28,562 nt of DNA from a virus. Shown here in pieces: positions 2,728-28,562 of the stretch; within the stretch, counting starts at the first letter, position 1; the number at the start of each line of letters is the position of its first letter. The stretch lies in the IMG/VR virus record IMGVR_UViG_3300004097_000037, positions 1 through 28,562 of that record. One strand, 5' to 3'. A program made the translations under genes and the position numbers. The notes under the pieces were generated by a model. That model was not told the origin of the DNA, did no database searches, and saw nothing but the letters and a program-made list of their open reading frames with translations.

Positions 2728-3690
2728 CTATTTTGTTGGTTGTGTAGAAAAATCTTCCGACGTTCTAATTTTAGTTTCTGTAAACTGTAAAGATAATGTA
2801 ATATGTTTTGGCATACCATCACCAAATAATTCCATACCACCATCAGAGCCATAATCTACCGTTACATTAGTCAAAACCATTAAATCAACGGCTGTTAATG
2901 TGTTTAAATGTGAATTGTTATTAACCATTTTAAAGTTATATGGTGATTGTAACATAGGTGTATTCGGTACATATGACGGTGATGAGTACTGTTTAAATTT
3001 CGTAATAATTAACAAAATTTGTCTAGCCTCACCTACATTTTTAGGCACTAAATCGTACTTTAAATTGAAACTTCTAGGCGTAGAACCTGAATAGTTTTGA
3101 AAATATCCCGGATCTATGATAGGTTTTCGTTGACCTGTCGAGTTTGCTATGTTAGCCAAAATTGAATCCATAGATAAATTTGATTTACGAATTGCCGATC
3201 CAGTAGCCATACCGATTAATGCATTTACACTTTTTTCGCCTAATGTTGCATCTTGAGCAGATAATGCATAGCCACCAATACCGCCCGCAATTTCAGTCAT
3301 TGAAGTATTAGCAATATTGGTATTTGCAAGGTTGTTACCTACTTCACCTATTAATGAACGTTGATTATTCCAATCGTGTGATTGTGAATCTGTAAATGTG
3401 CTTGGAAATGGTAGAGTGATAGTGCACAATTGTTCTGACCCAGTGGTCGTGTTATTAGATGTCATATTTTTACCGAGATCTTCTAAAGACTCATCGGGTG
3501 ATTTTGTTTTTGTTAGAACATCAATACCAAGCGAAACCGCCAATTTTAAAGATTCCGCAACTGTAGTTACTATACCTTTTTGATCATATACAATAAATGT
3601 AAGTGCCCTAGAACTATTAGAGTCATCAGCAATATTTTCTGGGTATAAGTAGTTTGGATATTTTGTTACTTGATCAATTGTGTTTGCCAT
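2728..3690 (-). CDS. Baseplate tail-tube cap/initiator protein, gp48/gp54-like
   Basis: A 320-aa protein. The frame is open further upstream to 3750, but the ATG at 3688-3690 is preferred because it has a strong AAAGGAG seven bases upstream and lies 25 bases after a late promoter box. The C-terminal half carries the usual tube-initiator pattern: YFQNYSGSTPRSFNLKYDL, then PKNVGEARQILLIITKFKQ, a PNTPMLQSPYNFKMV segment, and finally TNVTVDY with GMPKHITLSLQFTETK. In T4, gp48 and gp54 sit on the baseplate and nucleate polymerisation of the gp19 tube, sharing its fold. The middle (about 120-200) is rich in A, N and G and looks flexible. I cannot separate gp48 from gp54; only one such gene is present in the window. 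A terminator isolates it from the capsid gene. Confidence 0.65.
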   Translation of the reverse strand: MANTIDQVTKYPNYLYPENIADDSNSSRALTFIVYDQKGIVTTVAESLKLAVSLGIDVLTKTKSPDESLEDLGKNMTSNNTTTGSEQLCTITLPFPSTFTDSQSHDWNNQRSLIGEVGNNLANTNIANTSMTEIAGGIGGYALSAQDATLGEKSVNALIGMATGSAIRKSNLSMDSILANIANSTGQRKPIIDPGYFQNYSGSTPRSFNLKYDLVPKNVGEARQILLIITKFKQYSSPSYVPNTPMLQSPYNFKMVNNNSHLNTLTAVDLMVLTNVTVDYGSDGGMELFGDGMPKHITLSLQFTETKIRTSEDFSTQPTK

Positions 3691-7548: not shown

Positions 7549-8130
7549 TTATGATGCAATATCATTTAAGGTCGGTGCTGTTACACTTTCAGGTTTGTTA
7601 GTACTATCAGAACCCACAACCCAATCACTAAATGTGAACGTTGTATCAAATTCTAATACAGTATCAATTTGATCAGATCCCACGGTCATTTCACCAACAC
7701 CACTAACATAAACATTATGAAAAGTGTATTTTGCTGTTTCTACGCCCGCACTATCTAACTGTGATACCGATAATTCACCCATAACACTTGACGGATTTCC
7801 AGAATGTTCATTGTTTTGGAAGTGATCACAAGCTTTTAACCATGCTACCATATCACGACGTAAGCCATGATCTTCTGTAGTGTAAAAAGTTAACGTCCAT
7901 GAATTTGTGTACGCTGTATCTCCCGGAAGTGGTAGCTTACGACCTTGTGCAAACAATTCAATCATCCCCAATGTTACTTCGGGAAAAGTTGCAGATTTGC
8001 ATAACACTGCCGCATTTTCTAACAAACTAGTAGTTGATATTGTGCTTGGAATAGAAAAATTAATTAGATACTTTGATGCTCTCGCACCACTACCTATAGC
8101 TGATTTCAATTCTGCAATTTTATTAGACAT
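7549..8130 (-). CDS. 19: Major tail tube protein, gp19-like
   Basis: A 193-aa protein. The frame stays open to 8475, but the ATG at 8128-8130 is chosen: it has AAGGAAA upstream, lies 35 bases past a late promoter, and the upstream extension is a K/L-rich shadow of the acidic repeat gene. The sequence shows the usual tube-protein layout: MSNKIAELKSAIGSG at the N-terminus, KSATFPEVTLG, then GRKLPLPGDTAYTNSWTLTF with DMVAWLKACD, and at the C-terminus YTFHNVYVSGVG and LEFDTTFTFSDW. T4 gp19 (163 aa) stacks as hexameric rings to form the inner tube. Of the four tube-fold genes in the window this one sits in the main virion operon and has a promoter and upstream terminator of its own, so it is the best candidate for the major tube. 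Confidence 0.85.
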   Translation of the reverse strand: MSNKIAELKSAIGSGARASKYLINFSIPSTISTTSLLENAAVLCKSATFPEVTLGMIELFAQGRKLPLPGDTAYTNSWTLTFYTTEDHGLRRDMVAWLKACDHFQNNEHSGNPSSVMGELSVSQLDSAGVETAKYTFHNVYVSGVGEMTVGSDQIDTVLEFDTTFTFSDWVVGSDSTNKPESVTAPTLNDIAS

Positions 8131-8154
8131 ATTATTTCCTTTGTTTATTGTTAT

Positions 8155-8168
8155 ATAACATATGTTAT
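8155..8168. repeat. 14-bp palindrome at the tube-gene promoter
   Basis: ATAACATATGTTAT is a perfect palindrome that overlaps the late promoter box by three bases and covers the expected transcription start of the tail tube gene. Confidence 0.7.
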
Positions 8169-8173
8169 TTATA
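8166..8173 (-). promoter_or_regulatory. T4-type late promoter for the tail tube gene
   Basis: Exact TATAAATA on the minus strand, 35 bases upstream of the tube ATG, between a terminator and the gene. Confidence 0.75.
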
Positions 8174-8197
8174 CAATATAAACAATTTTGTCTAATT

Positions 8198-8226
8198 AAA
8201 AAAAAAAGAGCCATAAGGCTCTTTTT
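8198..8226 (-). terminator. Rho-independent terminator after the acidic repeat gene
   Basis: On the minus strand AAAAAGAGCC and GGCTCTTTTT pair as a 10-bp stem (8217-8226 with 8203-8212) around a four-base loop, followed by more T residues. It lies 26 bases past the stop of the acidic repeat gene and before the tube promoter. Confidence 0.85.
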
Positions 8227-8251
8227 ATGATAAGAATTTTTTAAGTTAAAA

Positions 8252-8737
8252 TTATTTAACTTCTTCAGTTTCAGGCTCTTTAACTTCTTCAGTTTCAGGT
8301 TCTTCGGCTTCAGCTTCAGTTTCAGGCTCTTTAACTTCTTCAGTTTCAGGCTCTTCGGCTTCAGTTCCTTCAGCTTCAGTTTCAGGCTCTTTAACTTCTT
8401 CAGTTTCAGGTTCTTCGGCTTCAGTTCCTTCAGCTTCAGTTTCAGGCTCTTTAACTTCTTCAGCGACTTTTTCAACTTTTACAGCTTCAACCACATCTAA
8501 AATATATGTAGCACGATCTGAACCGTGACGATTATTTGTTAAAAGACTAATTTCAAATTCACCTAAAGCCGCGGGTTGAAATTCTAAAACCGCATCAGAC
8601 GAAATAAGTGAACCACACATACGCCATGTGTAATCTAAAGCATCTTTGATTTTCGGATCAAATTTGTTAACTTTACCTACAGTAAATTTTAAACGTTCGG
8701 TTTTGTTTTGGATTATCGGTAAAATGATTTTACGCAT
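8252..8737 (-). CDS. Virion-operon protein with acidic 20-aa tandem repeats
   Basis: A 161-aa protein whose ATG overlaps the end of the preceding gene by eight bases. Residues 1-90 form a compact-looking domain (LKFTVGKVNKFDPKIKDALD, LEFQPAALGEFEISLLTNNR, ATYILDVVEAV) that I do not recognise. From about 94 to the end it is almost only E, P, T, A, K and V in a 20-residue repeat, EVKEPETEAEGTEAEEPETE: two full copies, one lacking GTEA, and a partial copy. The tail should be unstructured and very negative. Position between small terminase and tail tube suggests a structural or assembly role, for example a neck, tail-completion or decoration protein, but none can be claimed. Repeat number may vary between relatives. 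Confidence 0.75.
   Translation of the reverse strand: MRKIILPIIQNKTERLKFTVGKVNKFDPKIKDALDYTWRMCGSLISSDAVLEFQPAALGEFEISLLTNNRHGSDRATYILDVVEAVKVEKVAEEVKEPETEAEGTEAEEPETEEVKEPETEAEGTEAEEPETEEVKEPETEAEAEEPETEEVKEPETEEVK
8261..8463 (-). repeat. 60-bp tandem repeat array inside the acidic gene
   Basis: A 60-base unit encoding 20 residues is present about 3.4 times; one copy has an in-frame 12-base deletion. Copies are nearly identical at the DNA level, which points to recent duplication. Another reading frame over the same bases is open and gives a K/L-rich peptide. Confidence 0.85.
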
Positions 8738-9305
8738 CGTTATCTCTCTTATTTTTGGTTAATGAATTTAATTGTTTTATAATATCTGTTGTATTTATCT
8801 CTTTTTCAGGTCTATCAGAATTATCAACACCGTTAATTTTGTCTTGAGTGTCATTAATTTTATCTAATTGAACTAAAATTGTAGATATTTCTTTGTACGT
8901 TTTAAGGTATAGATCCATATTTACAGCAACACTTTTATTGACATCCGCAAATGCACTAATTAACATTGCTTTATCTGCTAAACTTGTATCTTCATCAAAT
9001 GAAAGTATACTAAGTGTTACATTTGATATAATTCTACGGCCTTCATCAGCATTTGTTTTTAATGTATTTCTAACATACTTAAAATCTTCTACTAACATGT
9101 TTAAGTTTAACGCTTGACTGGGTGAAAGTAAAGACTTATCTTCATCAGTCGACACAACTTCACCAACTAATGATTCCAATTCCTCACTTTCAACATTCAT
9201 ATCGTCTATAACGTCAGCTTTACCTATAAAACTATTCGTGATATTATTCATTTTTTCAGCTAATTTCTCAGCTTTTGTTTTAATAGCTTCAGTTTCTATA
9301 CTCAT
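8730..9305 (-). CDS. 16: Probable small terminase subunit, gp16-like
   Basis: A 191-aa, mostly helical protein. The arrangement fits T4 gp16 (164 aa): an acidic N-terminal part, a central helical hairpin (LVEDFKYVRNTLKTNADEGR followed by a second helix with ADKAMLISAFADVNKSVAVN and MDLYLKTYKEISTIL), and a short C-terminal helix (TTDIIKQLNSL) after a polar linker. Gp16 rings stimulate the gp17 packaging motor and select DNA. The call is by pattern memory, without alignment. The large subunit is not in the window, so the two genes are separated here, unlike in T4. An alternative is another helical neck or assembly protein. Confidence 0.55.
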   Translation of the reverse strand: MSIETEAIKTKAEKLAEKMNNITNSFIGKADVIDDMNVESEELESLVGEVVSTDEDKSLLSPSQALNLNMLVEDFKYVRNTLKTNADEGRRIISNVTLSILSFDEDTSLADKAMLISAFADVNKSVAVNMDLYLKTYKEISTILVQLDKINDTQDKINGVDNSDRPEKEINTTDIIKQLNSLTKNKRDNDA

Positions 9306-9314
9306 AAATTTACC

Positions 9315-10040
9315 TTATGCAACATCTATTGGTGCGGGATCAGACCATTTATTTAATAAGTCTTCTTTTAACTGTTCAAGTTCCGCGGTTGCTTCATTTT
9401 TCATATCTGCGTAATTTATACGACTACCCCCGACTAATGGTGCATCAAATTTACCCGTAGTCGTACCCCATAAAAATTTGACTTTAGACGTACAATATGC
9501 TTTAATATATTCGTGATTGAAAATTAAATCACCTTCGTCATCTGCAATATATTCATACTCGTAATGTAATAGACAAGTATCATTACAATTTTGCATTAAC
9601 TGTAATACCTTTTTATGTGGGTTAAAATTGTAGTTCATATCATCGCCCAAAAATTTATCTAATATGCTTTGTGTAGCAGAAATAGACATAATACTTGGTA
9701 TAATTGAACCACCTACCGATCCAGTGAAATACTGTTCAGACCACAAATCAGGCACAAAATCCATACCAAATTGAGAATTAAAATTCATAAAGCTGTTACC
9801 ACCTCTAGAAATCTTAATGATATTCGTTATCGTATCGGGTAAAAGATATTCGCCCGCACCACCTAATTCTATAAACGCGACCGCCTCCAAATCGCCATAA
9901 GCAAATTCTGTGAAATGTTGGATCGCATCGTCGATAATTTGTTTAATGGTATCTTCATCAACTTCAATCCTAACCAATGGAAATCCCAATTGACGTTTGA
10001 TGTAATCGACCAACTTATCTTTAGTGTTAATTCTTGCCAT
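9315..10040 (-). CDS. 13: Neck / head-completion protein, gp13-like
   Basis: A 241-aa protein with AGAGGT upstream of its ATG. The N-terminus (LVDYIKRQLGFPLVRIEVDE, then a helix QIIDDAIQHFTEFAYGDLE) is the pattern found in T4-superfamily gp13-type neck proteins: a helix, an LG-P-V-ximEV turn, then a long D/E-rich helix ending in aromatic residues. Then comes the beta-rich middle (FIELGGAGEYLLPDTITNII), and a C-terminal helix beginning YIKAYCTSKVKFLWG and ending ELEQLKEDLLNKW. In T4, gp13 and gp14 close the filled head and receive the tail. Gp14 would be the main alternative. T4 gp13 is about 309 aa, so this version is shorter. Adjacent probable small terminase supports a head/neck role. Confidence 0.6.
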   Translation of the reverse strand: MARINTKDKLVDYIKRQLGFPLVRIEVDEDTIKQIIDDAIQHFTEFAYGDLEAVAFIELGGAGEYLLPDTITNIIKISRGGNSFMNFNSQFGMDFVPDLWSEQYFTGSVGGSIIPSIMSISATQSILDKFLGDDMNYNFNPHKKVLQLMQNCNDTCLLHYEYEYIADDEGDLIFNHEYIKAYCTSKVKFLWGTTTGKFDAPLVGGSRINYADMKNEATAELEQLKEDLLNKWSDPAPIDVA

Positions 10041-10052
10041 GTTCTTGACCTC

Positions 10053-12191
10053 TTATACTATATCTGAAAATAAATTTAAAACTCGGTCTGTACCTGAAAC
10101 ATCGTTATTAGAAGTCGCCTGATTTACGTTAGATACAGATAACGATTGAATTTGATTAGCAATTAAGTTAGTTTTGCCGATCTCGGTTTGTACATATTCG
10201 TTAGATATTGTATTTATAACATCAACTTTTTTATTTTTATTTGGAACCGCTTCAACTTGTTCATTAGGTTGCTTATCCGTTTTAGATGTGTTACCATCAT
10301 ATTCGGGATTATTAGCCTTTTTACTTTGCTCAATGAATTCTTGATTCATTTGCTCTAATGATTCATACTCCTTAATAGGCGTATAATTGTCTGGTTTAGA
10401 CGGCTTAACATCGTTATTCATTTGCTCTAATGATTCATACTTTTTAATGGTATTATCCACACCCATTGTATTATCGACATTTGTTTCATTATTTTCGTTA
10501 TGTAAATTAAATGCCTCTTGTATAGTGATACGTTTACCATCTTTATCTAGAACATACTGTACTTCTTTTTCAGAATTATCAGAGCTAGGCAATGGTGTAC
10601 CAGATTTATATTTAATTGCATCTTTAGCAAATGTTTTAAAGTAATTATTTGCTTTAATAGAAACTTTACTAAACGTATCTTTAACATCATTCAATTTGTC
10701 TGGATTTTCATCAAAAAATTTGATAGCATTATCACGCATCAATTTATTTTCGTTCTGTTCTTTAAGTTTTCTATTTTTGATTTTATCTTTCAATATCGAT
10801 ACCATCATTTTAGTATCATCACCAGAAAAATCATCTATTGCAATTACTTCACTCATTTGTTCTTCAGAGAGTGCTTTAAATTTTGTAAAATCAACATCAC
10901 TATTAAACACGGTGTTTTTAGTGATCACGTTCATGTTTTCGTAACGTTTAATGATAGTACTACGTTCACCACCAATAAAGTTGTTAATATTTTTAGTAAG
11001 TGAATCACTACCAATACCCAACGTTAATACTGAACTTAATGCTGACGCGGCTTTGTTTTGTGTAGTTACTTCATCTTCGTCAATACCTAAACTTTCACCC
11101 GCTTTTTGCCAACCGTTCGACGCATCCATTGCAGTCAATCCCGCAGTAACTACCCATCCCGCAATTGGTATTGCCATAGCCGCACCACGTGCCGCAGTTT
11201 TCAAAGCTACTGTTGATGCAATTTTAGCCGCTATTTTTTCACCACTCTTTTTAACTAATCCGCTTGCCATTTTACTAGTGGCTGTTACCGCGGCTTTAGC
11301 AACTTTAGCCCCTTTACTGGTTAATGATGATAGTGTTTTTAAAATGGTTTTTGCATGAGGCATTAATGTCTTTATAAAAGAAAACATACTTTTAAGACTT
11401 CTAAGCCCAACTTTACCAAGATATTTTAAAGTCGATACGGCACCTTTTGTTACCATTTTAGATAGGTATTTAACGGTTTTAAGTAACGCTCTAGTCGGTG
11501 AAAATTTTAATATTCTACCGAAAATCTTTTTCGCTAAAAAGCCCATAAATGAACCTGCTAACAGACTTTTTAACAGACCGCCTTTATTTTCATCCTTGTC
11601 TTTATCTTTATCTTTATCCTTGTCATCATCTTCATTTTGTGGTGAAGTTGTTGGGTTAGATGTATCTTGATTATCACTAGGTACAGGCAAATTAATACTT
11701 GTGTCTTGATCATCATGATTACTTTGATACATGCGAGTTAATACATCTAGAATTTTTGTATTAGTATTCAATATACCTGTTAATTTTGGCAAATCTTGAT
11801 CACGATTTTCTGTTACTTGTGCGATCGCTTTACTATCAACATCACTGATATTATTTTGAACTAATTCGATTTCTCTAGATTGTACCTCAATTTGAGTTTG
11901 TACAACTTCACTACTACTTTTAGATGATTTAACTTCTTTTTCGGTAGCTTTAACTTTATCAAGTTTTTGAGTATTTTCAAGTTGTTTTTGGCTATCAAGT
12001 TTTGCACGTTGATTGGCTATTTTACGTTCTTCTAAAGTCTCACGAATTTTTTCTGAACGGGCACTAGTCGATGGTGTATCAACTTCAGTGACTTGTCGAC
12101 CTCTAGCACGTTTAGGTGCAGAACTCAATGATTTTCTACCGCTACTTTTAGCTTTAGTGTTTTGTTTAATCTTTGCTTTACGGTTAGCCAT
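10053..12191 (-). CDS. Probable tail tape measure protein (gp29-like role)
   Basis: A 712-aa protein, the longest in the window, with AGAGGA before its ATG. The N-terminus is basic (to about 35), followed by K/Q/E-rich helical segments to 130 and a D/K run at 188-200. Hydrophobic and amphipathic stretches follow: LLKSLLAGSFMGFLAKKIF (206-224), repeated KYL/GLRSL helices, and an AARGAAMAIPIAGWVVTAGL membrane-like segment at 333-352. This build is usual for tape measures, which set tail length and may cross the inner membrane. Position supports it: two gp26-like proteins lie just upstream, where tape-measure chaperones sit in many tailed phages. The C-terminal third is polar, with a duplicated ESLEQMN motif. 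A different hub or ejected protein cannot be excluded. Confidence 0.55.
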   Translation of the reverse strand: MANRKAKIKQNTKAKSSGRKSLSSAPKRARGRQVTEVDTPSTSARSEKIRETLEERKIANQRAKLDSQKQLENTQKLDKVKATEKEVKSSKSSSEVVQTQIEVQSREIELVQNNISDVDSKAIAQVTENRDQDLPKLTGILNTNTKILDVLTRMYQSNHDDQDTSINLPVPSDNQDTSNPTTSPQNEDDDKDKDKDKDKDENKGGLLKSLLAGSFMGFLAKKIFGRILKFSPTRALLKTVKYLSKMVTKGAVSTLKYLGKVGLRSLKSMFSFIKTLMPHAKTILKTLSSLTSKGAKVAKAAVTATSKMASGLVKKSGEKIAAKIASTVALKTAARGAAMAIPIAGWVVTAGLTAMDASNGWQKAGESLGIDEDEVTTQNKAASALSSVLTLGIGSDSLTKNINNFIGGERSTIIKRYENMNVITKNTVFNSDVDFTKFKALSEEQMSEVIAIDDFSGDDTKMMVSILKDKIKNRKLKEQNENKLMRDNAIKFFDENPDKLNDVKDTFSKVSIKANNYFKTFAKDAIKYKSGTPLPSSDNSEKEVQYVLDKDGKRITIQEAFNLHNENNETNVDNTMGVDNTIKKYESLEQMNNDVKPSKPDNYTPIKEYESLEQMNQEFIEQSKKANNPEYDGNTSKTDKQPNEQVEAVPNKNKKVDVINTISNEYVQTEIGKTNLIANQIQSLSVSNVNQATSNNDVSGTDRVLNLFSDIV
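10344..10441 (-). repeat. 26-bp direct repeat pair, 72-bp period
   Basis: Two identical 26-base copies (10344-10369 and 10416-10441) inside the probable tape measure gene encode the repeated YESLEQMN motif. The 72-base spacing equals 24 codons, suggesting an in-frame duplication. Confidence 0.8.
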
Positions 12192-12201
12192 TACAAATCC
12201 T

Positions 12202-12963
12202 CTATTGACCCGATGTCTCTTTTCTGGTATTGTTTAACATACCGACAAATATAGTACGTTCAAACGGTATTAATGTATCTATATCTTGCTTACTATATTT
12301 TCCGAAATAAATCAAATCAGAATATGTTTTGTATATAGATTGGATCGTGTCTTCACTCATATTCTCAACAATAAAATTATCACTAAGATTGATAGGAACA
12401 TGATTACCACATTGACAATATCCGATTATATTAGACTTAAACTTAATCGTTTTAGTCTCAATTTCGTCATAAATATCTTCAAATTCTATAGCATCCATAT
12501 TATCTATAATATCAGTCGAAACTTTCGAACCGTCATGAATTCGTAAATAATCTTCTATATCGATTGATTTATCTGTTAAATCATTGTATTGTTCTACTAT
12601 AGAAAAATTAGGATATTTTTTAGGTTTATGGTCAACATTGATTTTATTTGTGAAAAAATCATCGACCTTAGCTAATGTATTATTTACAGCATGACATTTA
12701 TTGCACGTGAAATTGAAACTAATATCATCACCTAGTGACAATTCTCGACATTTTAATAAAATTATACGTTTTTCGTATCGTGTGAAATTGGCTATAGTTT
12801 CTTTATCATAGCCAATTATCAATAACGCCTCATCTAAAATATCAAAATTCACGTGTTCGACATCCTGCATCAACATAACAAGTATTGCTTTTTCTTGTTT
12901 AGTTGTATACTGTGACACTTCAATTTCTTTAAAGCCATATATCGAACCGTATTTAAATTTCAT
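12202..12963 (-). CDS. gp26-like baseplate hub/assembly protein, second copy, zinc-binding
   Basis: A 253-aa protein whose ATG directly follows the stop of the first gp26-like gene; no strong ribosome site is seen, so translational coupling is likely. It shares that gene's layout: an N-terminal helical part (QEKAILVMLMQDVEHVNFD, YEKRIILLKCRELSLGDDIS), a Cys pair in TCNKC (87 and 90), an acidic helical centre, then a second Cys pair, here CQC (183 and 185), and a C-terminal helix. The four Cys could bind one zinc ion. T4 gp26 and gp51 are hub-assembly proteins, and Pfam T4_baseplate proteins of marine phages have similar Cys pairs. It may chaperone the tape measure encoded next. Family call is moderate. 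Confidence 0.55.
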   Translation of the reverse strand: MKFKYGSIYGFKEIEVSQYTTKQEKAILVMLMQDVEHVNFDILDEALLIIGYDKETIANFTRYEKRIILLKCRELSLGDDISFNFTCNKCHAVNNTLAKVDDFFTNKINVDHKPKKYPNFSIVEQYNDLTDKSIDIEDYLRIHDGSKVSTDIIDNMDAIEFEDIYDEIETKTIKFKSNIIGYCQCGNHVPINLSDNFIVENMSEDTIQSIYKTYSDLIYFGKYSKQDIDTLIPFERTIFVGMLNNTRKETSGQ

Positions 12964-13698
12964 TTATTCAGACCATGATTCTGGGAAAAACGCGGGAATA
13001 TCATCGACAACAACGTTCTCAACATGACCACAATTTGTACAAACAACACCGATAACGTTATCCAATTTGAAACGTTGTTTTTCCCATTGAGTAATAATAT
13101 CTTCAAAAAGATTGACATCAACACTATTAAATAGGCTGAATTTTTCTTCTGAAGTGTAAACGTGATCATTAATACTTTGTACGTGCTGTACTAAGTCAAC
13201 GAATAATGCTTCAAATTCTGATTCAGCTTTTGCCAAATAATCGTCATATACGTCTTGAGATTTAATGCGCCCCATTTTAAAACGTAATTTACCTTTACCA
13301 CTTTCTACGATAATTGTACTAAAGTTTTCACAGTCGGCTTTAACCGCTGTATTCAAATCTAGTTCAAACGTGAAAGTTTTTTCACATTTAGCACAATCTA
13401 ATGCCATTTCAACTTTATGACTAATACTTTTATTACGAATAGTTACAAGTAAAAATTGATATTCGTCTGGTGTTATTGGTGGTGCACCCTCTAAACAATC
13501 AATAACTAAACTTTGTCTGATACCCTTAACGATTTTTTCTTTTTCTTCAATAGAGTCGACTAATTCAATTTTAGCGGTGTACGCAAGATATTTCTTTTTA
13601 TCTTTAATTTTCCACGAACGATATTTGAAAACTTTATCACGAATACTTACTTCGTATGGGAATTCTTTTTGAATTAATTCATCTGTTTTGTTAGTCAT
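12964..13698 (-). CDS. 26: gp26-like baseplate hub protein (T4_baseplate family), zinc-ribbon type
   Basis: A 244-aa protein with GAGGA upstream. The N-terminal part (FPYEVSIRDKVFKYRSWKIK, then KKKYLAYTAKIE) and the helical centre with EYQFLLVTIRNKSIS are typical of the T4_baseplate (gp26) family. Cys pairs at DCAKC (102, 105) and CTNCG (220, 223) likely bind zinc. In T4, gp26 takes part in building the central hub of the baseplate; its presence in the mature particle is unclear. It is followed without gap by a second protein of the same layout, then by the probable tape measure, so the two may act as a hub or tape-measure chaperone pair. Which of the pair corresponds to gp26 and which to gp51 is not resolved. 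Confidence 0.6.
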   Translation of the reverse strand: MTNKTDELIQKEFPYEVSIRDKVFKYRSWKIKDKKKYLAYTAKIELVDSIEEKEKIVKGIRQSLVIDCLEGAPPITPDEYQFLLVTIRNKSISHKVEMALDCAKCEKTFTFELDLNTAVKADCENFSTIIVESGKGKLRFKMGRIKSQDVYDDYLAKAESEFEALFVDLVQHVQSINDHVYTSEEKFSLFNSVDVNLFEDIITQWEKQRFKLDNVIGVVCTNCGHVENVVVDDIPAFFPESWSE

Positions 13699-13712
13699 TA
13701 TGTGTCCTCAAC

Positions 13713-14237
13713 CTATTTTTTTATTACAGGTGACATTGATTTAAATTTTACGGTAAACTCAGAAACTTGAGCCTCATTATTATTATTTATATCGAGATTA
13801 GAAATGCCCTCAATAAAACAATCGTTTAACGTCATCAATTCAGTATTAACTTCACCTTCATAATCGGCCTCTTTAATGATGTTAATTATTGAGCAAGCAT
13901 CATCAAAATACCAACCCGCTTGAGATCTATATGCTGTTAAAAATTTTCTGTACAAGTACATCATATCATAATCTCGAAATGTTATTGAGAATCGATATAA
14001 TTCGTCTTTACCGTTATGAATCCTGTATTGCCCGCCTATATAAACTTCGATAGGTGAATTACTAAAATCAGGCGTGTTTATAGATACGATATGTTGATTA
14101 ATATCCCTACCCTCTACGTCATCAACCCAACCTATCAATTTACCCATTTCTGAAGAAAATGATATTTGTACTTGGTACGTATTCGACATAGACCATTTTT
14201 TATTTATAATTGCCGAAATATCTGTTGAAAAAGCCAT
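13713..14237 (-). CDS. Tail tube-fold protein, minus-strand paralogue
   Basis: A 174-aa protein with AAAGGT upstream and half of a two-way late promoter 28 bases before the ATG. It shows the tube-fold layout: an N-terminal strand (NTYQVQISFSSEMG), SINTPDFSNSPIEVYIGG, LYRFSITFRDYDMMYLYRKF, and the C-terminal pattern LNDCFIEGISNLDI followed by SEFTVKF. These match, segment by segment, the gp19-like gene and the two plus-strand tube-fold genes. It heads the main late operon, just before the gp26-like pair, so it may be a special tube ring near the hub or the tail end (tube initiator or terminator) rather than the bulk tube. Its exact role cannot be read from sequence. Confidence 0.6.
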   Translation of the reverse strand: MAFSTDISAIINKKWSMSNTYQVQISFSSEMGKLIGWVDDVEGRDINQHIVSINTPDFSNSPIEVYIGGQYRIHNGKDELYRFSITFRDYDMMYLYRKFLTAYRSQAGWYFDDACSIINIIKEADYEGEVNTELMTLNDCFIEGISNLDINNNNEAQVSEFTVKFKSMSPVIKK

Positions 14238-14265
14238 AATTTTACCTTTATTGATTATCTTTCTT

Positions 14266-14273
14266 TATTTATA
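14266..14273 (-). promoter_or_regulatory. T4-type late promoter, leftward half of a two-way promoter
   Basis: Exact TATAAATA on the minus strand, 28 bases before the ATG at 14237. It is the left part of the palindrome TATTTATAAATA (14266-14277) and shares four bases with the rightward promoter. It probably opens the long leftward virion operon. Confidence 0.8.
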
Positions 14274-14277
14274 AATA
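14270..14277 (+). promoter_or_regulatory. T4-type late promoter, rightward half of a two-way promoter
   Basis: Exact TATAAATA on the plus strand, continued as ATAC like the T4 consensus, 19 bases before the ATG at 14297. It overlaps the leftward box by four bases, so one palindrome serves both directions. Confidence 0.8.
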
Positions 14278-14296
14278 ATACATTTAAGGAATAATC

Positions 14297-15103
14297 ATGA
14301 GTTCAAATATACAGAATCTATTAGAGAAAAATTTAGGTGACGGTGGTAGAAGTACCAAATTTGATGCTATTTTTCAATTTACTTCTCAAAATCAGCCAGA
14401 TTCGGAATTTGTCGCGTCTTCAGTTAAAACTACGTCATTTCCGGGAAAGTCACATACCCCTATACACATAAAAATGGGCGGTCGACCTGTACCCGTTCGT
14501 GGTCATGTAAAGTATAGTCAAGAATGGTCGTGTACTTTTTACTTAACAGATAACCACGAATTGAAGAATGTATTCGAGTTGTGGCTTGAAGCACTTGATG
14601 AAAAACATCACTATAATGATAGTGTAGATGGTATGGACGCATTAATACAGCAACATAAATCTTATGGTTTTTATAGAGATATTAGTGTATACCAATTAAG
14701 TTTTGATGAGACTGAACAAATGTCAAAATATGAAATGCACAATGCTTTTCCTATTCGTATTTCGGAAGTTGATGTATCTTATGAGGGAACATCTAAAGTT
14801 TTAGAATTCACGGTAACTTTTGCGTTTACACATTATACGCATTCAGTAACTTCAGCGGATTCAGGTAATTTTTTAGATGGTATTATATCTAAGATACAAA
14901 GTAGTGTTAGTTCGACTATATCGAGTAATTTGACAGAATTCGCTAATCAACTTATATCAGGTGAAACGGTCGGTGATGTATCTAATATTTTTGCTAATGT
15001 AACGGGGTTATCTTCAGATACATCAACTTACAGTAAAATGTTTGATATGTTTAATACTGGTGGTGTGAATTCTGACAATATGCCTAATTCACTTAATAAA
15101 TAA
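14297..15103 (+). CDS. Tail tube-fold virion protein, plus-strand copy 1
   Basis: A 268-aa protein with TAAGGA upstream. Residues 20-195 follow the tube fold: STKFDAIFQFTSQNQ, TTSFPGKSHTPIHIKMGGRP, QEWSCTFYLTDNHELKNVFE with LWLEALDE, and then YEMHNAFPIRISEVDVSYEG with VLEFTVTFAFTHY. About 70 extra residues follow that are rich in S, T, N and G (for example SSVSSTISSNLTEFANQLIS) and carry no clear motif. It is larger than T4 gp19 (163 aa) and than the main tube gene here. It could be a minor tube ring, a tube-baseplate adapter or a decorated tube variant. Ten bases separate it from the next tube-fold gene, so the pair is cotranscribed. Confidence 0.65.
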   Translation: MSSNIQNLLEKNLGDGGRSTKFDAIFQFTSQNQPDSEFVASSVKTTSFPGKSHTPIHIKMGGRPVPVRGHVKYSQEWSCTFYLTDNHELKNVFELWLEALDEKHHYNDSVDGMDALIQQHKSYGFYRDISVYQLSFDETEQMSKYEMHNAFPIRISEVDVSYEGTSKVLEFTVTFAFTHYTHSVTSADSGNFLDGIISKIQSSVSSTISSNLTEFANQLISGETVGDVSNIFANVTGLSSDTSTYSKMFDMFNTGGVNSDNMPNSLNK

Positions 15104-15114
15104 GGTAGTAAAAT

Positions 15115-15822
15115 ATGAGTAAAACTATATCAGATCTTAAATCGTCAATAGGTGGCGGTTTAATGACAAATAAATATTTGGTTGAAATGACATCACCAAT
15201 ATTAACTATGGATGCTAATAAACTTAATATACTTTGTAATAAAGCTAGTTTTCCAGAAAGAACGATTGCAACAAATGAAATTTGGCGATACGGTCGTAAA
15301 TATGTTGTACGTGCTGAAACTACTTATAATGGTTCAATTACATTAGGATTCATAGATGACGATGAAGCGAATATTAGACAATTCTTTGACGCTTGGTTAA
15401 AGGTTGTTGATGATAGTGGTACATCAGCCGCGTTTGATCTATCGTCATATGAGGCCACTACGAGCGGCATTTTAGATATTGTAAGTAAATTGCAATCTGA
15501 TCCGTCGTCAATTGTACAAAGTTTACTAGATGATGATTTCGCGGATTCATTGGCTAGTTATCAGAATAGTTTTAATATTTGGGCGTTGAATAACAGTAAT
15601 GATAAGGTTTACGGTTACAAGTTACAAAACTGTTACCCAACTAGTATAAGTGGTGTAGATTTTAGCGACTCAGATTCTAATAAAGTGATGGAATTTACAG
15701 TAACATTTTCATATTCTGAATTTGAACCAATCAAAGATACTACTTTATTAGAAACAGTTGCGGATACGCTTATTGGTAATGTTGTTGATACCTCGATCAC
15801 TATGGAGGATATATTCGATTAA
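15115..15822 (+). CDS. Tail tube-fold virion protein, plus-strand copy 2
   Basis: A 235-aa protein with AAGGTAG upstream. It is the closest visible relative of the main tube protein: both begin with MS, then I-x-x-LKS-x-IG-x-G and KYL, and both have an LC-x-x-A-x-FPE segment, GRK, a TLxF strand and AWLK. The C-terminus has YKLQNCYPTSISGVDFSDSD and VMEFTVTFSYSEF. Between them is an insert of about 45 residues (SSYEATTSGILDIVSKLQSD) absent from the main tube protein. The similarity indicates duplication and divergence. The gene ends overlapping a convergent minus-strand gene by four bases. Role is inferred to be tube-related but specialised. Confidence 0.65.
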   Translation: MSKTISDLKSSIGGGLMTNKYLVEMTSPILTMDANKLNILCNKASFPERTIATNEIWRYGRKYVVRAETTYNGSITLGFIDDDEANIRQFFDAWLKVVDDSGTSAAFDLSSYEATTSGILDIVSKLQSDPSSIVQSLLDDDFADSLASYQNSFNIWALNNSNDKVYGYKLQNCYPTSISGVDFSDSDSNKVMEFTVTFSYSEFEPIKDTTLLETVADTLIGNVVDTSITMEDIFD

Positions 15823-18742: not shown

Positions 18743-20368
18743 ATGGCTTTAGACTCAGAACAGGTAATCCAAATCATTGATATGATTACTGAAGGTATCC
18801 AATTAGAAAATAATGGCGGTGAGGGATATTCAAACTATTATATCGCGGAAATGGTTTTAGAAAGCCCTAGTGCGGAAAGTACAATTCGACGTATCAAAAA
18901 AGAATTGCTAAGTACTGGTAGTTATCGCGGTATTGTTGGTAATATGCAAATTGCGGGCGGTACAATTTCGGAGCCTGACACTAAACGAGGACAATTTAAA
19001 GGTGATCGTTTCATTATAACATCAGCACAAAACAATACACTTATACATGATAAATTCTACAAATCTTTAATGGTATATGCAGAACACAACAATTCAGAAT
19101 TAATTGTTAGTACATTTGATTATAATAAAAATAGCTTTAAAAATACACATGAAGATTTATGGTTTGATGAGCGTATCCGTGATAGTATCTGTGATAAGCC
19201 TATGCAAATTGCTAAAGATTTGGTATTTTGTGGTGAATTTAATATTCTACCAACTGCTGTTACACCATTATCAGGTTTATATAATTATACTGGCAGTGAA
19301 AGCGGAATTATCCCTCACGCAAAAATGCAACTTGAAAGTATCCCTACACCAAAACATGATACACCTAAAATGTTATACACTACTGGTTGTTTAACACAAA
19401 TGAATTACATCCAGAAAAAATCTGGAACAAAAGCTGAATGGCATCATATTTTCGGAGCTTTAGCGGTTGAAATTGATGAAGACGGTGAATGGTTTGTACG
19501 TCAATTAGTAGCTAATTCTGAAACTGGTGAATTTTATGACTTAGATGTTTTATACACACCAAAAGGTATTAAAGAAAATCAATCTATTGAAGCGATCAAC
19601 TACGGTGATATTCATGCCGCGGGTTTAAGTGAAATGGTAGCGGATGTGTCATGGCGTAAAAATAAACTTAACGATAGTATTTTAGATGTATTACGTCCTA
19701 AATATCAATTTTTACATGATGTACATGATCAACGTGCACGTAATCACCACAACGTTAAAGATCCACACTTCATGTTTAAAATGTATCACAATCAAACTGA
19801 ATCTGTCAAGGATGAAATTTTTAATACTGCTCAAGTTATTAAAGAAACAATTCGTGACTTTAGTCAAACAATTATCGTTGAAAGTAATCACAATTTAGCC
19901 GTTACTCAATGGTTAAAAGAAATGGATTATAAACGTGATCCTGTTAATGCTATTTTCTTTTTAGAAATGCAAACAGCAATTTATAAAGCGATCGCACGTG
20001 GTGAAAGTTTAGCGGTATTTGAATACGCTTGTAAAATTTTAGACGGTGGTTTAGACGATGTTTTATTTTTACGTGAAGACGAAAGTTTTAGAATAGCGGG
20101 AAATATTGAGTGTGGTTCACATGGTCATTTGGGTAATTCTGGAAGTCGTGGCGGTATTCAGACATATCTAAAATTAGGTATTAAACACAATTTAGGTCAT
20201 GTTCATGGTGCGGCTATTCGTGAGGGTGTTTATTATGCGGGTATGAGTGGTGAACTTGAACAAGGATATAATAAGGGTGGTAGTTCTTGGAACCATTCAC
20301 ACATTTTGACATATGTGAATGGTAAACGAGCAATCATTACCTTAAAAAATGGTAAATGGAGAGCTTAA
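18743..20368 (+). CDS. Large metallophosphoesterase-like protein resembling phage T5 A1
   Basis: A 541-aa protein with TAAGGAAA upstream. The N-terminus (about 1-60) looks like a helix-turn-helix unit (NYYIAEMVLESPSAESTIRR). The rest carries the ordered motifs of calcineurin-like metallophosphoesterases: GDIH at 288-291, an HDVHD segment at 325-329, SNHN at 381-384, GSHGH at 458-462 and GHVH at 485-488. The C-terminal part (GNSGSRGGIQTYLKLGIKHN, then REGVYYAG, then SSWNHSHILTYVNGKR) matches what I remember of T5 A1 and its relatives. T5 A1 is a pre-early protein needed for host DNA breakdown and second-step DNA transfer. If the likeness is true, this may be a nuclease acting on host DNA. The gene stands alone on the plus strand between minus-strand units. 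Confidence 0.65.
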   Translation: MALDSEQVIQIIDMITEGIQLENNGGEGYSNYYIAEMVLESPSAESTIRRIKKELLSTGSYRGIVGNMQIAGGTISEPDTKRGQFKGDRFIITSAQNNTLIHDKFYKSLMVYAEHNNSELIVSTFDYNKNSFKNTHEDLWFDERIRDSICDKPMQIAKDLVFCGEFNILPTAVTPLSGLYNYTGSESGIIPHAKMQLESIPTPKHDTPKMLYTTGCLTQMNYIQKKSGTKAEWHHIFGALAVEIDEDGEWFVRQLVANSETGEFYDLDVLYTPKGIKENQSIEAINYGDIHAAGLSEMVADVSWRKNKLNDSILDVLRPKYQFLHDVHDQRARNHHNVKDPHFMFKMYHNQTESVKDEIFNTAQVIKETIRDFSQTIIVESNHNLAVTQWLKEMDYKRDPVNAIFFLEMQTAIYKAIARGESLAVFEYACKILDGGLDDVLFLREDESFRIAGNIECGSHGHLGNSGSRGGIQTYLKLGIKHNLGHVHGAAIREGVYYAGMSGELEQGYNKGGSSWNHSHILTYVNGKRAIITLKNGKWRA

Positions 20369-22118: not shown

Positions 22119-22940
22119 ATGAAATCTTATAGGATTGAACACAGATTGACGCGAAAATGCAACTATTCATGTAGTTATTGTTATGAAGTATTTGACGATA
22201 CTTTTGATAATATAAAAGTCGATTTTGAAGGATTAAGATATTATATTGAATCATTTAAAGATACAATTATCGAATATAACATTATAGGTGGTGAACCAAC
22301 TAGGCACCCACAATTTAAAAAGCTGATCGAATTTCTTTTAGAATTTGACAATCTTCACATTTTGATCACTAGTAACGGTTCAAAATCATTAAAGTTTCTT
22401 AATTATATTAGTACCGATAGGTTAAAAATATTATTCAGTTATCACAACTCTGATACTAATATCGACGATTTTATGGTTAAAGTTTCCGAAATTTCAAGCC
22501 ATGTAAAGTGTGTTAATGTCGTGGATAATCCACAATTGAACAATAATGCATATGAAGAATATCACGAATTGAAACGACAACTTTTAGAATATGATATTGA
22601 ATTGCATTTATACCCTGAACTCGGTAAACTTGAAGAAAAACCAAATGAAAGAAGTCAAGTTATTAATATACAGGAACCATCAGTATTTGAGGACGTAAAA
22701 AAATTGTGGTATTATAAGAATGGTTTATATCAATCTTGGTTAGATGATTCTTGTAAAACTAAAGGTAGACGATGCAGTATAACAGAACATGAAAGTGTTG
22801 TGCAAGATAATAAAATATACCCTTGTGTGTATTTTGCTAATAAAGAAAAGAGTGGTGTAGACTTTAAAGATTGCGAATCTATAAAGCCTAAATTTTGTCG
22901 CTTTGAATATTGTTTATTTAATGCTCAATTTGTTGATTAG
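22119..22940 (+). CDS. Radical SAM enzyme with Cys-rich (SPASM-like) C-terminus
   Basis: A 273-aa protein with AAAAGGTTAAG upstream. Residues 14-21 read CNYSCSYC, the C-x3-C-x2-C motif that binds the radical SAM 4Fe-4S cluster, followed by Tyr. IIGGEP (55-60) is the SAM-binding GGE motif, then HILITSNGS and KILFSYH fit further barrel strands. Six Cys lie in the last 65 residues (212, 219, 236, 252, 260, 265), typical of SPASM/twitch domains that hold auxiliary clusters in peptide- and protein-modifying enzymes. Substrate is unknown. It is a single plus-strand gene between the adhesin unit and the spanins and overlaps the outer spanin gene tail to tail by 23 bases. It is not QueE-like by the spacing and residues around the motif. 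Confidence 0.85.
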   Translation: MKSYRIEHRLTRKCNYSCSYCYEVFDDTFDNIKVDFEGLRYYIESFKDTIIEYNIIGGEPTRHPQFKKLIEFLLEFDNLHILITSNGSKSLKFLNYISTDRLKILFSYHNSDTNIDDFMVKVSEISSHVKCVNVVDNPQLNNNAYEEYHELKRQLLEYDIELHLYPELGKLEEKPNERSQVINIQEPSVFEDVKKLWYYKNGLYQSWLDDSCKTKGRRCSITEHESVVQDNKIYPCVYFANKEKSGVDFKDCESIKPKFCRFEYCLFNAQFVD

Positions 22941-27021: not shown

Positions 27022-27422
27022 AACAACTCTCGATCTTCGAATGATGAACCGCCAAACAATTGAACAGCTTTTACAAGTGTAATACGTTTCCACTTATCAA
27101 CAATACCAACAATCATAGCCTCCTCAAACACTAAATCACTTTGATCACGTGTTATATTAACCGTAACTGTGCGGTATAAGTAATCATGTAAAAGTGCTTC
27201 ATACTTATATTCACCATCGGGTGGTAATAACCAACTAAAAATATACGGAGTTGAGGCTAAATCACTTTGAAATCCTTTAGGGATTGTATAAAACTGTCCC
27301 ATCAATTCACTGTAATAAATGATATCCTCTAACACTTCGAAATTTTCACGTTTCCACCAATGTGATTTACCCAATGATTTCAACTTAACGTCTGTTTTAA
27401 ATCCACTTGTTTCGTTATTCAT
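27018..27422 (-). CDS. DUF1353 family protein
   Basis: A 134-aa protein. The frame opens at 27461, but the ATG at 27420-27422 is chosen: GGGAATA lies upstream and it follows the preceding stop by one base. The sequence matches the phage-linked DUF1353 pattern: FYTIPKGFQSDLASTPYIFS, then YKYEALLHDYLYR with a conserved His-Asp, then DQSDLVFEEAM and a final AVQLFGG. DUF1353 proteins are common in tailed phages and prophages; function is not established, though the conserved His-Asp has led to ideas of a hydrolase. Here it lies between the phosphoesterase and transketolase-like genes, away from the virion block. Confidence 0.8.
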   Translation of the reverse strand: MNNETSGFKTDVKLKSLGKSHWWKRENFEVLEDIIYYSELMGQFYTIPKGFQSDLASTPYIFSWLLPPDGEYKYEALLHDYLYRTVTVNITRDQSDLVFEEAMIVGIVDKWKRITLVKAVQLFGGSSFEDRELL

Positions 27423-27423
27423 A

Positions 27424-27885
27424 TTATTCCCATTTTTCATTATCAAAACCCAATCGCACAAAATGTACGCCTTGTGTATTTATCAAATCTTTCGATAAAC
27501 GCAAAAACTCTTTTCTGGTTTTCGGCTCATACAATGGGATTTTTAACAACTCACACAATTCCGCATCATCGTCGATCGTGTGGCCTTTACCTATTTTACC
27601 ATAACAACCATTAGCACCCGCATTAACAAATATAACACTACCAGATTGTCGACGTAAAACTAATTTAATTTGTTCATAACTTTTATATAAAACAAAACCA
27701 CAAACACCGTAAATAAATACGGTTTTATTTTGAGCAGATAACCCTTGCGCAAGGTTTACCATATGTGGTTCTTGAATACCACAATTAACTTCGTTATGTA
27801 CTCGGTGAGGGAACATATCCGCGTGTAAAAAGAATATATCATTACTCTTAATACGATTGATGAATTTTGCTAGTAACTTTCTCAT
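27424..27885 (-). CDS. Stand-alone transketolase pyrimidine-binding domain (split ThDP enzyme, C-terminal part)
   Basis: A 153-aa protein. The segment from residue 34 reads NCGIQEPHMVNLAQGLSAQN, the same layout as the N-x-G-I-x-E-q-x-m-v-n-x-A-x-G-L of transketolase and DXS pyrimidine domains; Glu39 matches the Glu that activates thiamine diphosphate. Further family signs are FIYGVCGFVLYKSYEQIKLV, VIFVNAGANGCYGKIGKGHT, DDDAELCELLKIPLYEP and a final VRLGFD strand. The C-terminal transketolase domain that normally follows is absent. A gene cut by the right edge appears to be the matching N-terminal subunit. Substrate is unknown; such split enzymes move two-carbon units between sugars. The ATG overlaps the upstream stop by four bases. 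Confidence 0.75.
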   Translation of the reverse strand: MRKLLAKFINRIKSNDIFFLHADMFPHRVHNEVNCGIQEPHMVNLAQGLSAQNKTVFIYGVCGFVLYKSYEQIKLVLRRQSGSVIFVNAGANGCYGKIGKGHTIDDDAELCELLKIPLYEPKTRKEFLRLSKDLINTQGVHFVRLGFDNEKWE

Positions 27886-28358
27886 TTCTTCTGACCTTTA
27901 TATTCAAAATCTAAAACAACACCACTATCATGTACGATTTGTATTTTCAAAACACCATCATTTATAACTTCAGGGGTATTTAAATTACTATCACAAACGA
28001 CATCATAACCTTTAAAATCATTATCATAAATCCACGTATTAATAAAGTACTTTATAGAGTTTCTATACACACCATCATTAATTTTACCGCTTACATTAAC
28101 TAAAAAGAATACATCACTCTCTAGAAAATCACGAATTCTGATTATTTCTTTAGACATTTTAAGTTTATACAGATTTAATGATCTATGCGCTTCATTTATT
28201 CTAACCATCGAGCTATCATCTTCGATGTTTTCGATAGCTTTATTATGACGTAACCCAATAATGAACGCGTCAGATAATTGGCTATGTTTAGTATCAGAAA
28301 AATGGTACTTTCTAAGTAATGATTTTTCTTCTTCAGTAAATGTATTTAATAATGACAT
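27882..28358 (-). CDS. Unknown 158-aa protein between the two transketolase-like genes
   Basis: The ATG overlaps the preceding gene by 13 bases, and the stop overlaps the next start by four, so it is coupled to both transketolase-like genes. The N-terminal half is helical and charged (TEEEKSLLRKYHFSDTKHSQ). The C-terminal half (YRNSIKYFINTWIYDNDFKG, then YDVVCDSNLNTPEVINDGVL, then KIQIVHDSG) resembles in outline the C-terminal domain of tail sheath proteins: a helix, then YxVxCD, N, and G-x-L-x-I. That likeness is by eye only, and a virion role would be odd here. It could instead be a third subunit or regulator of the ThDP enzyme. Confidence 0.7.
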   Translation of the reverse strand: MSLLNTFTEEEKSLLRKYHFSDTKHSQLSDAFIIGLRHNKAIENIEDDSSMVRINEAHRSLNLYKLKMSKEIIRIRDFLESDVFFLVNVSGKINDGVYRNSIKYFINTWIYDNDFKGYDVVCDSNLNTPEVINDGVLKIQIVHDSGVVLDFEYKGQKK

Positions 28359-28562
28359 AATTCATCCATAATTTCTGCGTGTTCAGTTTCAGTTAGTTTA
28401 GAATAATGATATTTAACGGGATCATCCATAAATCGTTGTACTGGATAACCTTTTACAGTATCAAAAAATATACAAACAGCGGGTAAAAATGGGTTATCGG
28501 CAACTTCTAACATATGTTCTAAAAAGAAATAATCATCTACATTTTCGTAATTACAACATGTA
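28346..28562 (-). CDS. C-terminus of a transketolase N-terminal (ThDP-binding) subunit, cut by window edge
   Basis: Seventy-two codons are visible, ending TAA at 28346-28348. The peptide has PAVCIFFDTVKGYPVQRFMD followed by DPVKYHYSKLTETEHAEIMD. This matches the end of transketolase N-terminal domains: a hydrophobic strand, D/T-TVKG, a short turn with F-M, then H-Y-x-x-LTxxE and a helix. In full-length enzymes the TVKG loop lies just before the link to the pyrimidine domain. Here the chain stops instead, as in split transketolases. The diphosphate-binding GDG motif would lie beyond the window. With the pyrimidine-domain gene two genes downstream it would complete the enzyme. The visible part is short, so the call is moderate. 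Confidence 0.6.
   Translation of the reverse strand, partial: TCCNYENVDDYFFLEHMLEVADNPFLPAVCIFFDTVKGYPVQRFMDDPVKYHYSKLTETEHAEIMDELCHY

Follow-up and report, generated by a model that had tools for sequence, protein, structure and literature searches.

Four gp19-family tail-tube genes in a fragment of a T4-like phage and the five-gene set of its lineage

Analysis of a 28.6 kb viral fragment (IMG/VR record IMGVR_UViG_3300004097_000037, 28,562 nucleotides; the whole stretch is referred to as the window) revealed four genes of a single tail tube-fold family, that of T4 gp19. We designated them A, B, C and D (Table 1). The lineage to which the fragment belongs (Vibrio phages Va1/Pv27, Campylobacter phages CP220 and NCTC12673 as well as uncultured phages) has five such genes, and its real excess over T4 is two. 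The best assignment for the two extra genes, A and B, is that of two separately conserved gp19-derived paralogs. The earlier note, which pointed to four tube-fold genes in one window, made a correct observation, for which the explanation is largely ordinary. Extra tube-protein genes and their virion products are already known from the Campylobacter members of the lineage; new are the increase in count from three to five, the division into orthogroups and the assignment of D to gp54.

The window is a piece of a T4-like myovirus genome with gp48-, gp53-, gp5-, gp23-, gp22-, gp21-, gp2- and gp26/gp51-type genes. By the major capsid protein, the Va1 group of Vibrio phages comes nearest among cultured relatives (about 61% identity), followed by the Campylobacter Firehammervirus (46%). 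The 712-aa protein, inferred to be the tape measure from its gene position and a weak match to PHROG 7182 (tail injection, E 9e-8), comes after the gp26/gp51 genes, an order also seen in related phages. Both hub genes within 12202-13698 (minus strand; Pfam T4_baseplate) encode paired CxxC motifs resembling zinc ribbons. The window also carries a gene for a 541-aa protein at 18743-20368 (plus strand), which matches PHROG 1745 'DNA transfer protein' at 2e-183 and no Pfam family, and one for a radical SAM protein (22119-22940, plus strand; PF04055). Several radical SAM genes have likewise been described for Campylobacter phage IBB_35 (PMC3322345).

Table 1. Positions of the tail genes and late-promoter octamers discussed in the text
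Feature	Position	Strand	Length	Assignment or support
gp48-type baseplate tail-tube cap	2728..3690	-		PHROG 230 E 5e-34; Pfam T4_tail_cap above cut-off
C	7549..8130	-	193 aa	gp19 equivalent, probable main tail-tube subunit
TATAAATA octamer	8166..8173	-		upstream of C
Protein in tape-measure position	10053..12191	-	712 aa	after gp26/gp51 genes
gp51/gp26-type hub assembly gene	12202..12963	-		PHROG 634 E 3e-11; PHROG 150 E 1e-10; Pfam T4_baseplate E 4e-6
gp26-type baseplate hub gene	12964..13698	-		adjoins D; Pfam T4_baseplate E 1e-20
D	13713..14237	-	174 aa	probable gp54 equivalent, tube-initiation ring
Overlapping TATAAATA octamer pair	14266..14277	opposite strands		between D and A; T4 late-promoter type
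A	14297..15103	+	268 aa	extra gp19-derived paralog with C-terminal extension
B	15115..15822	+	235 aa	extra gp19-derived paralog; inserted helical segment at about residues 103-148

All four open reading frames proved to be real, and their common membership in one tail tube-fold family was borne out by PHROG 45 and independent HMMs for all four proteins and by AlphaFold2 models for D and B. The matches to PHROG 45 (tail tube) had E-values of 2e-39 for C, 2e-35 for B, 2e-30 for A and 6e-8 for D. We then ranked the 97 stop-to-stop frames of the window with an HMM made from ten gp19 sequences, all from other phages. The top four were exactly these genes (E 2e-32, 4e-25, 5e-24 and 2e-5; the fifth frame reached 0.37), and a second HMM, built from gp19, gp3 and gp54, likewise placed exactly A, B, C and D on top. 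In comparison with 2000 shuffled copies, D scored 17.0 bits against 10.5 for the best shuffle with the gp19 HMM and 27.2 against 8.7 with the combined one, which rules out a chance resemblance to the gp19 family. None of the four reaches the curated cut-off of 28.2 bits of Pfam PF06841 (Phage_T4_gp19): B scored 25.0, C 23.5 and A 18.1, and D gave no match. By sequence, they are thus divergent members relative to this Pfam model.

The LKSxIGxG motif ascribed to C and B is present in both (LKSAIGSG and LKSSIGGG, respectively), and A has a related segment, LGDGGRSTKF. Of the ordered segments said to be common to all four, D lacks the 'FP', reading NTPDF instead, and it clearly stands farther off than A, B and C. 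Beyond the four, the window holds one further tube-type gene, the gp48 tube cap, which T4 has as well.

To compare gene numbers, we searched whole phage records with PHROG 45. The earlier note had set the four genes against a single T4 gp19 plus gp48/gp54. This comparison was off, as T4 gp54 and gp3 themselves belong to the gp19 fold family; the four therefore do not amount to four extra tubes. T4 has three PHROG 45 members, namely gp19 and gp54 (identified by T4 annotation) and gp3 (by position, size and family). Exactly three were also found in each of RB49, KVP40, Aeh1, S-PM2, P-SSM2, HTVC008M, phiM12, S-H9-1 and Melnitz-1, so that all ten T4-like genomes outside the window's lineage, T4 included, have three apiece. 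Five members (A, B, C, D and gp3) occur in Va1, Pv27 and long uncultured contigs of 205, 158, 127, 59, 44 and 37 kb. In CP220 and NCTC12673 the profile found four, and D was added by direct search. Rhodothermus phage RM378 gave one weak match. The expansion is not peculiar to the window but fixed across the whole lineage; T4 lacks two of its five genes. Of this set the window holds A, B, C and D. The fifth gene, gp3, is seen in near-complete relatives and must be encoded outside the 28.6 kb fragment.

In viral contigs, searches with the single proteins A, B and D found nothing, and alignment queries recovered 62 loci for B and 13 for D. The A gene of one contig (IMGVR_UViG_3300003177_000149, L069 815-1321) looks frameshifted in comparison with its near-identical twin (IMGVR_UViG_3300003873_000069, L067), either through a sequencing error or through real inactivation.

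Part of this gene set has been described in individual phages. Multiple gp19 and gp18 homologs were reported for CP220 by Timms et al. in 2010 (PMC2853527), and four tail tube genes were listed for Pv27 in 2025 (PMC12063606). The Vibrio phages Va1, phiKT1024, phiTY18 and Pv27 carry A, B, C, D, gp3 and gp48. In this group A, B and C stand in tandem behind the sheath and GroEL genes, whereas in the window C lies apart on the other strand. The Firehammervirus phages CP220, CPt10 and IBB_35 have three gp19-type genes, with orthologs of A, B, C and D at about 29-51% identity to the window proteins; in these phages the four are dispersed around the genome, and D is annotated as hypothetical. The genome of NCTC12673 (GU296433) contains three divergent gp19-type genes at 27245-28378 and about 74350-75180, one of them annotated 'gp19 tail tube protein II'. 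A matched expansion of sheath and tube was unsupported: with the Pfam sheath model, Va1, Pv27 and NCTC12673 each gave a single gene, and CP220 gave one clear match and a second, weak one. Published counts of sheath genes are three in CP220 (Timms et al., PMC2853527) and two in Pv27 (PMC12063606).

A tree of 93 sequences resolved separate groups for gp3 (support 99/96), gp19 (99/82), A (99/99), B (94/94) and D (100/99), with 16 sequences each in the A and B orthogroups. A, B and C, together with some long-branch gp54 sequences, were sister to gp19 (94/90). Two Fletchervirus paralogs (27806 and 74350 of NCTC12673) sit on long branches, so their assignment to A or B is unsure. The fixation of every protein in an orthogroup of its own indicates that the copies are specialised and not interchangeable. 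Timms et al. (PMC2853527) could not separate mixed virions from discrete populations, which leaves room for paralogs that are mixed between virions or swapped between phages. We consider this hardly credible, since every genome has one copy of each paralog, each paralog forms an orthogroup of its own with deep conservation, and the scores between groups lie far below those within them. A loose published remark on 'multiple gp19 genes' can in this way be replaced by a clean statement: five gp19-family genes against three, each a separate orthogroup.

Among the four, C stands out as the leading candidate for the main tube, being nearest to gp19 by profile and the most conserved. A profile of C and its relatives matched T4 gp19 in the PDB at 1e-14, compared with about 1e-3 for A and B; C is 64% identical to the Va1 protein, and its conservation is far above that of A or B. 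On these sequence grounds, C is the probable gp19 equivalent and main tail-tube subunit. It is odd for an abundant subunit that the list of CP220 virion gel bands names the orthologs of A (CPT_0045) and B (CPT_0175), not C (PMC2853527).

D is probably the gp54 equivalent. This assignment rests on the gene order D-gp26-gp51-tape measure and on a structural match that is best by a small margin. D shares the direction of gp26 and lies immediately upstream of it; the gp54 equivalents of S-H9-1, Melnitz-1, HTVC008M, S-PM2 and phiM12, five T4-like phages outside Straboviridae with their third PHROG 45 gene before gp26, likewise stand directly upstream of gp26, followed by the gp51/tape-measure region. 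AlphaFold2 models were made for D (mean pLDDT 69.7) and B (mean pLDDT 72.6), and A and C were assessed by sequence. Both models match tail-tube chains from phages T4 and P1, a Klebsiella KP1-type phage, AFP and PVC. The best matches of D were gp54-type chains (Z 12.4 for one T4 chain and one KP1 chain), ahead of T4 gp19 (Z 11.2) and a gp3-sized chain of the T4 neck structure (Z 9.8); the gap in Z between gp54 and gp19 is small, and the chains taken to be gp54 and gp3 were so assigned from residue ranges and lengths. A profile search of the PDB with D gave no match, so the structural call for D rests on the model. No profile match related D to T4 gp28, gp26, gp51 or gp27.

The sequence profiles in turn speak for A as the real gp54 equivalent. 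D would then be a further hub-associated ring of the tube fold, or else an assembly factor, with no counterpart in T4. A carries a gp54-like C-terminal extension and matches gp54 profiles (T4 4e-6, Melnitz 1e-13), which D does not (0.002 and 0.008). As divergent neighbours, both lie near gp26, and the tree rejects neither gp54 with A (AU p 0.36) nor gp54 with D (AU p 0.34). We nevertheless regard this alternative as rather unlikely: A is divergent from D-gp26 and thus, unlike D and the gp54 equivalents of the five phages, not co-directional with gp26, it falls in the tree with B, C and the gp19 clade, and the model of D has a probable gp54 chain as its best match. With D as the probable gp54 equivalent, the D genes annotated as hypothetical in Va1, Pv27 and CP220 gain a probable function.

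The earlier note read the expansion as a tube made of different rings or a tube with special end or baseplate adapters. Our data favour the latter, and a tube of different bulk rings is unsupported. A and B are probably single-ring adapters at tube ends. The junction of baseplate and tube is the likelier site, as the C-terminal extension of A and the helical insertion of B resemble the additions of gp54 to the tube fold. The model of B also matches baseplate tube chains of AFP and PVC about as well as gp19; these extracellular contractile injection systems are headless particles, while the window encodes capsid genes.

Virion data could be taken to mean that A and B are bulk subunits, in a tube of three different proteins arranged in zones or mixed rings. 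Read naively, the bands of CP220 on a Coomassie-type gel, which include A and B, favour this. In IBB_35 all three gp19-type proteins, orthologs of A, B and C, were found in virions by mass spectrometry in 2012 (PMC3322345; the paper contradicts itself on gp3, listing it both as found and as not detected), and the segment inserted in B leaves its modelled tube fold undisturbed. However, the same CP220 gel shows few-copy proteins (gp20, gp48 and gp4), so a band does not imply bulk; C is far more conserved than A or B and closest to gp19, and A and B carry extensions and insertions. We therefore judge bulk roles for A and B to be unlikely, and equally doubt, a little more strongly, that they form whole tube zones in a contractile tail tube of three bulk subunits in fixed order.

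The CP220 genome hints at another site. There the B gene comes immediately after that of a gp15-type tail terminator (PMC2853527), which would put A, B or both where the tube meets the head, beside gp3 and gp15. Such adjacency of genes carries little weight, and in Va1 as well as the uncultured contigs A and B are consecutive and usually accompanied by C, not gp15; a head-end position is accordingly improbable.

We observed which fold family the proteins belong to, which genes the lineage carries, how these are ordered and where the late-promoter octamers lie; the places of the proteins in the tail, including the order and numbers of rings, we infer. In the preferred reading, with adapters at the junction, gp48 would cap the hub and D would form the ring next to it, on which the tube would start. 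A and B would each contribute a single hexameric ring or a small number of them to a junction, possibly between D and the tube polymerised from C, and gp3 would close the head end. In T4, where the roles of these proteins are described, gp48, gp54 and gp3 are present in 6 copies each and gp19 in 138 (PMC3004832). We see about an even chance that this whole picture holds, in which the four gp19-family proteins belong to a T4-like contractile tail with D, A and B as junction rings. How a contractile tail uses extra tube rings is now testable in the cultured phages Va1, Pv27 and CP220.

The window contains 15 copies of the T4 late-promoter octamer TATAAATA against 7.6 expected, and none of 100 shuffles reached 15. 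The octamers upstream of C and between D and A fit late structural genes. A and B, separated by a gap of about 12 bp, are probably on one transcript. Tandem repeats with units of 15, 24, 51 and 60 bases at 8252-8475 code for the EPETEE-type repeats that end the gene at 8252-8737. They leave a lysine/leucine-rich open frame before C, as a result of which mechanical ORF calling begins C too early, at a TTG at 8475.
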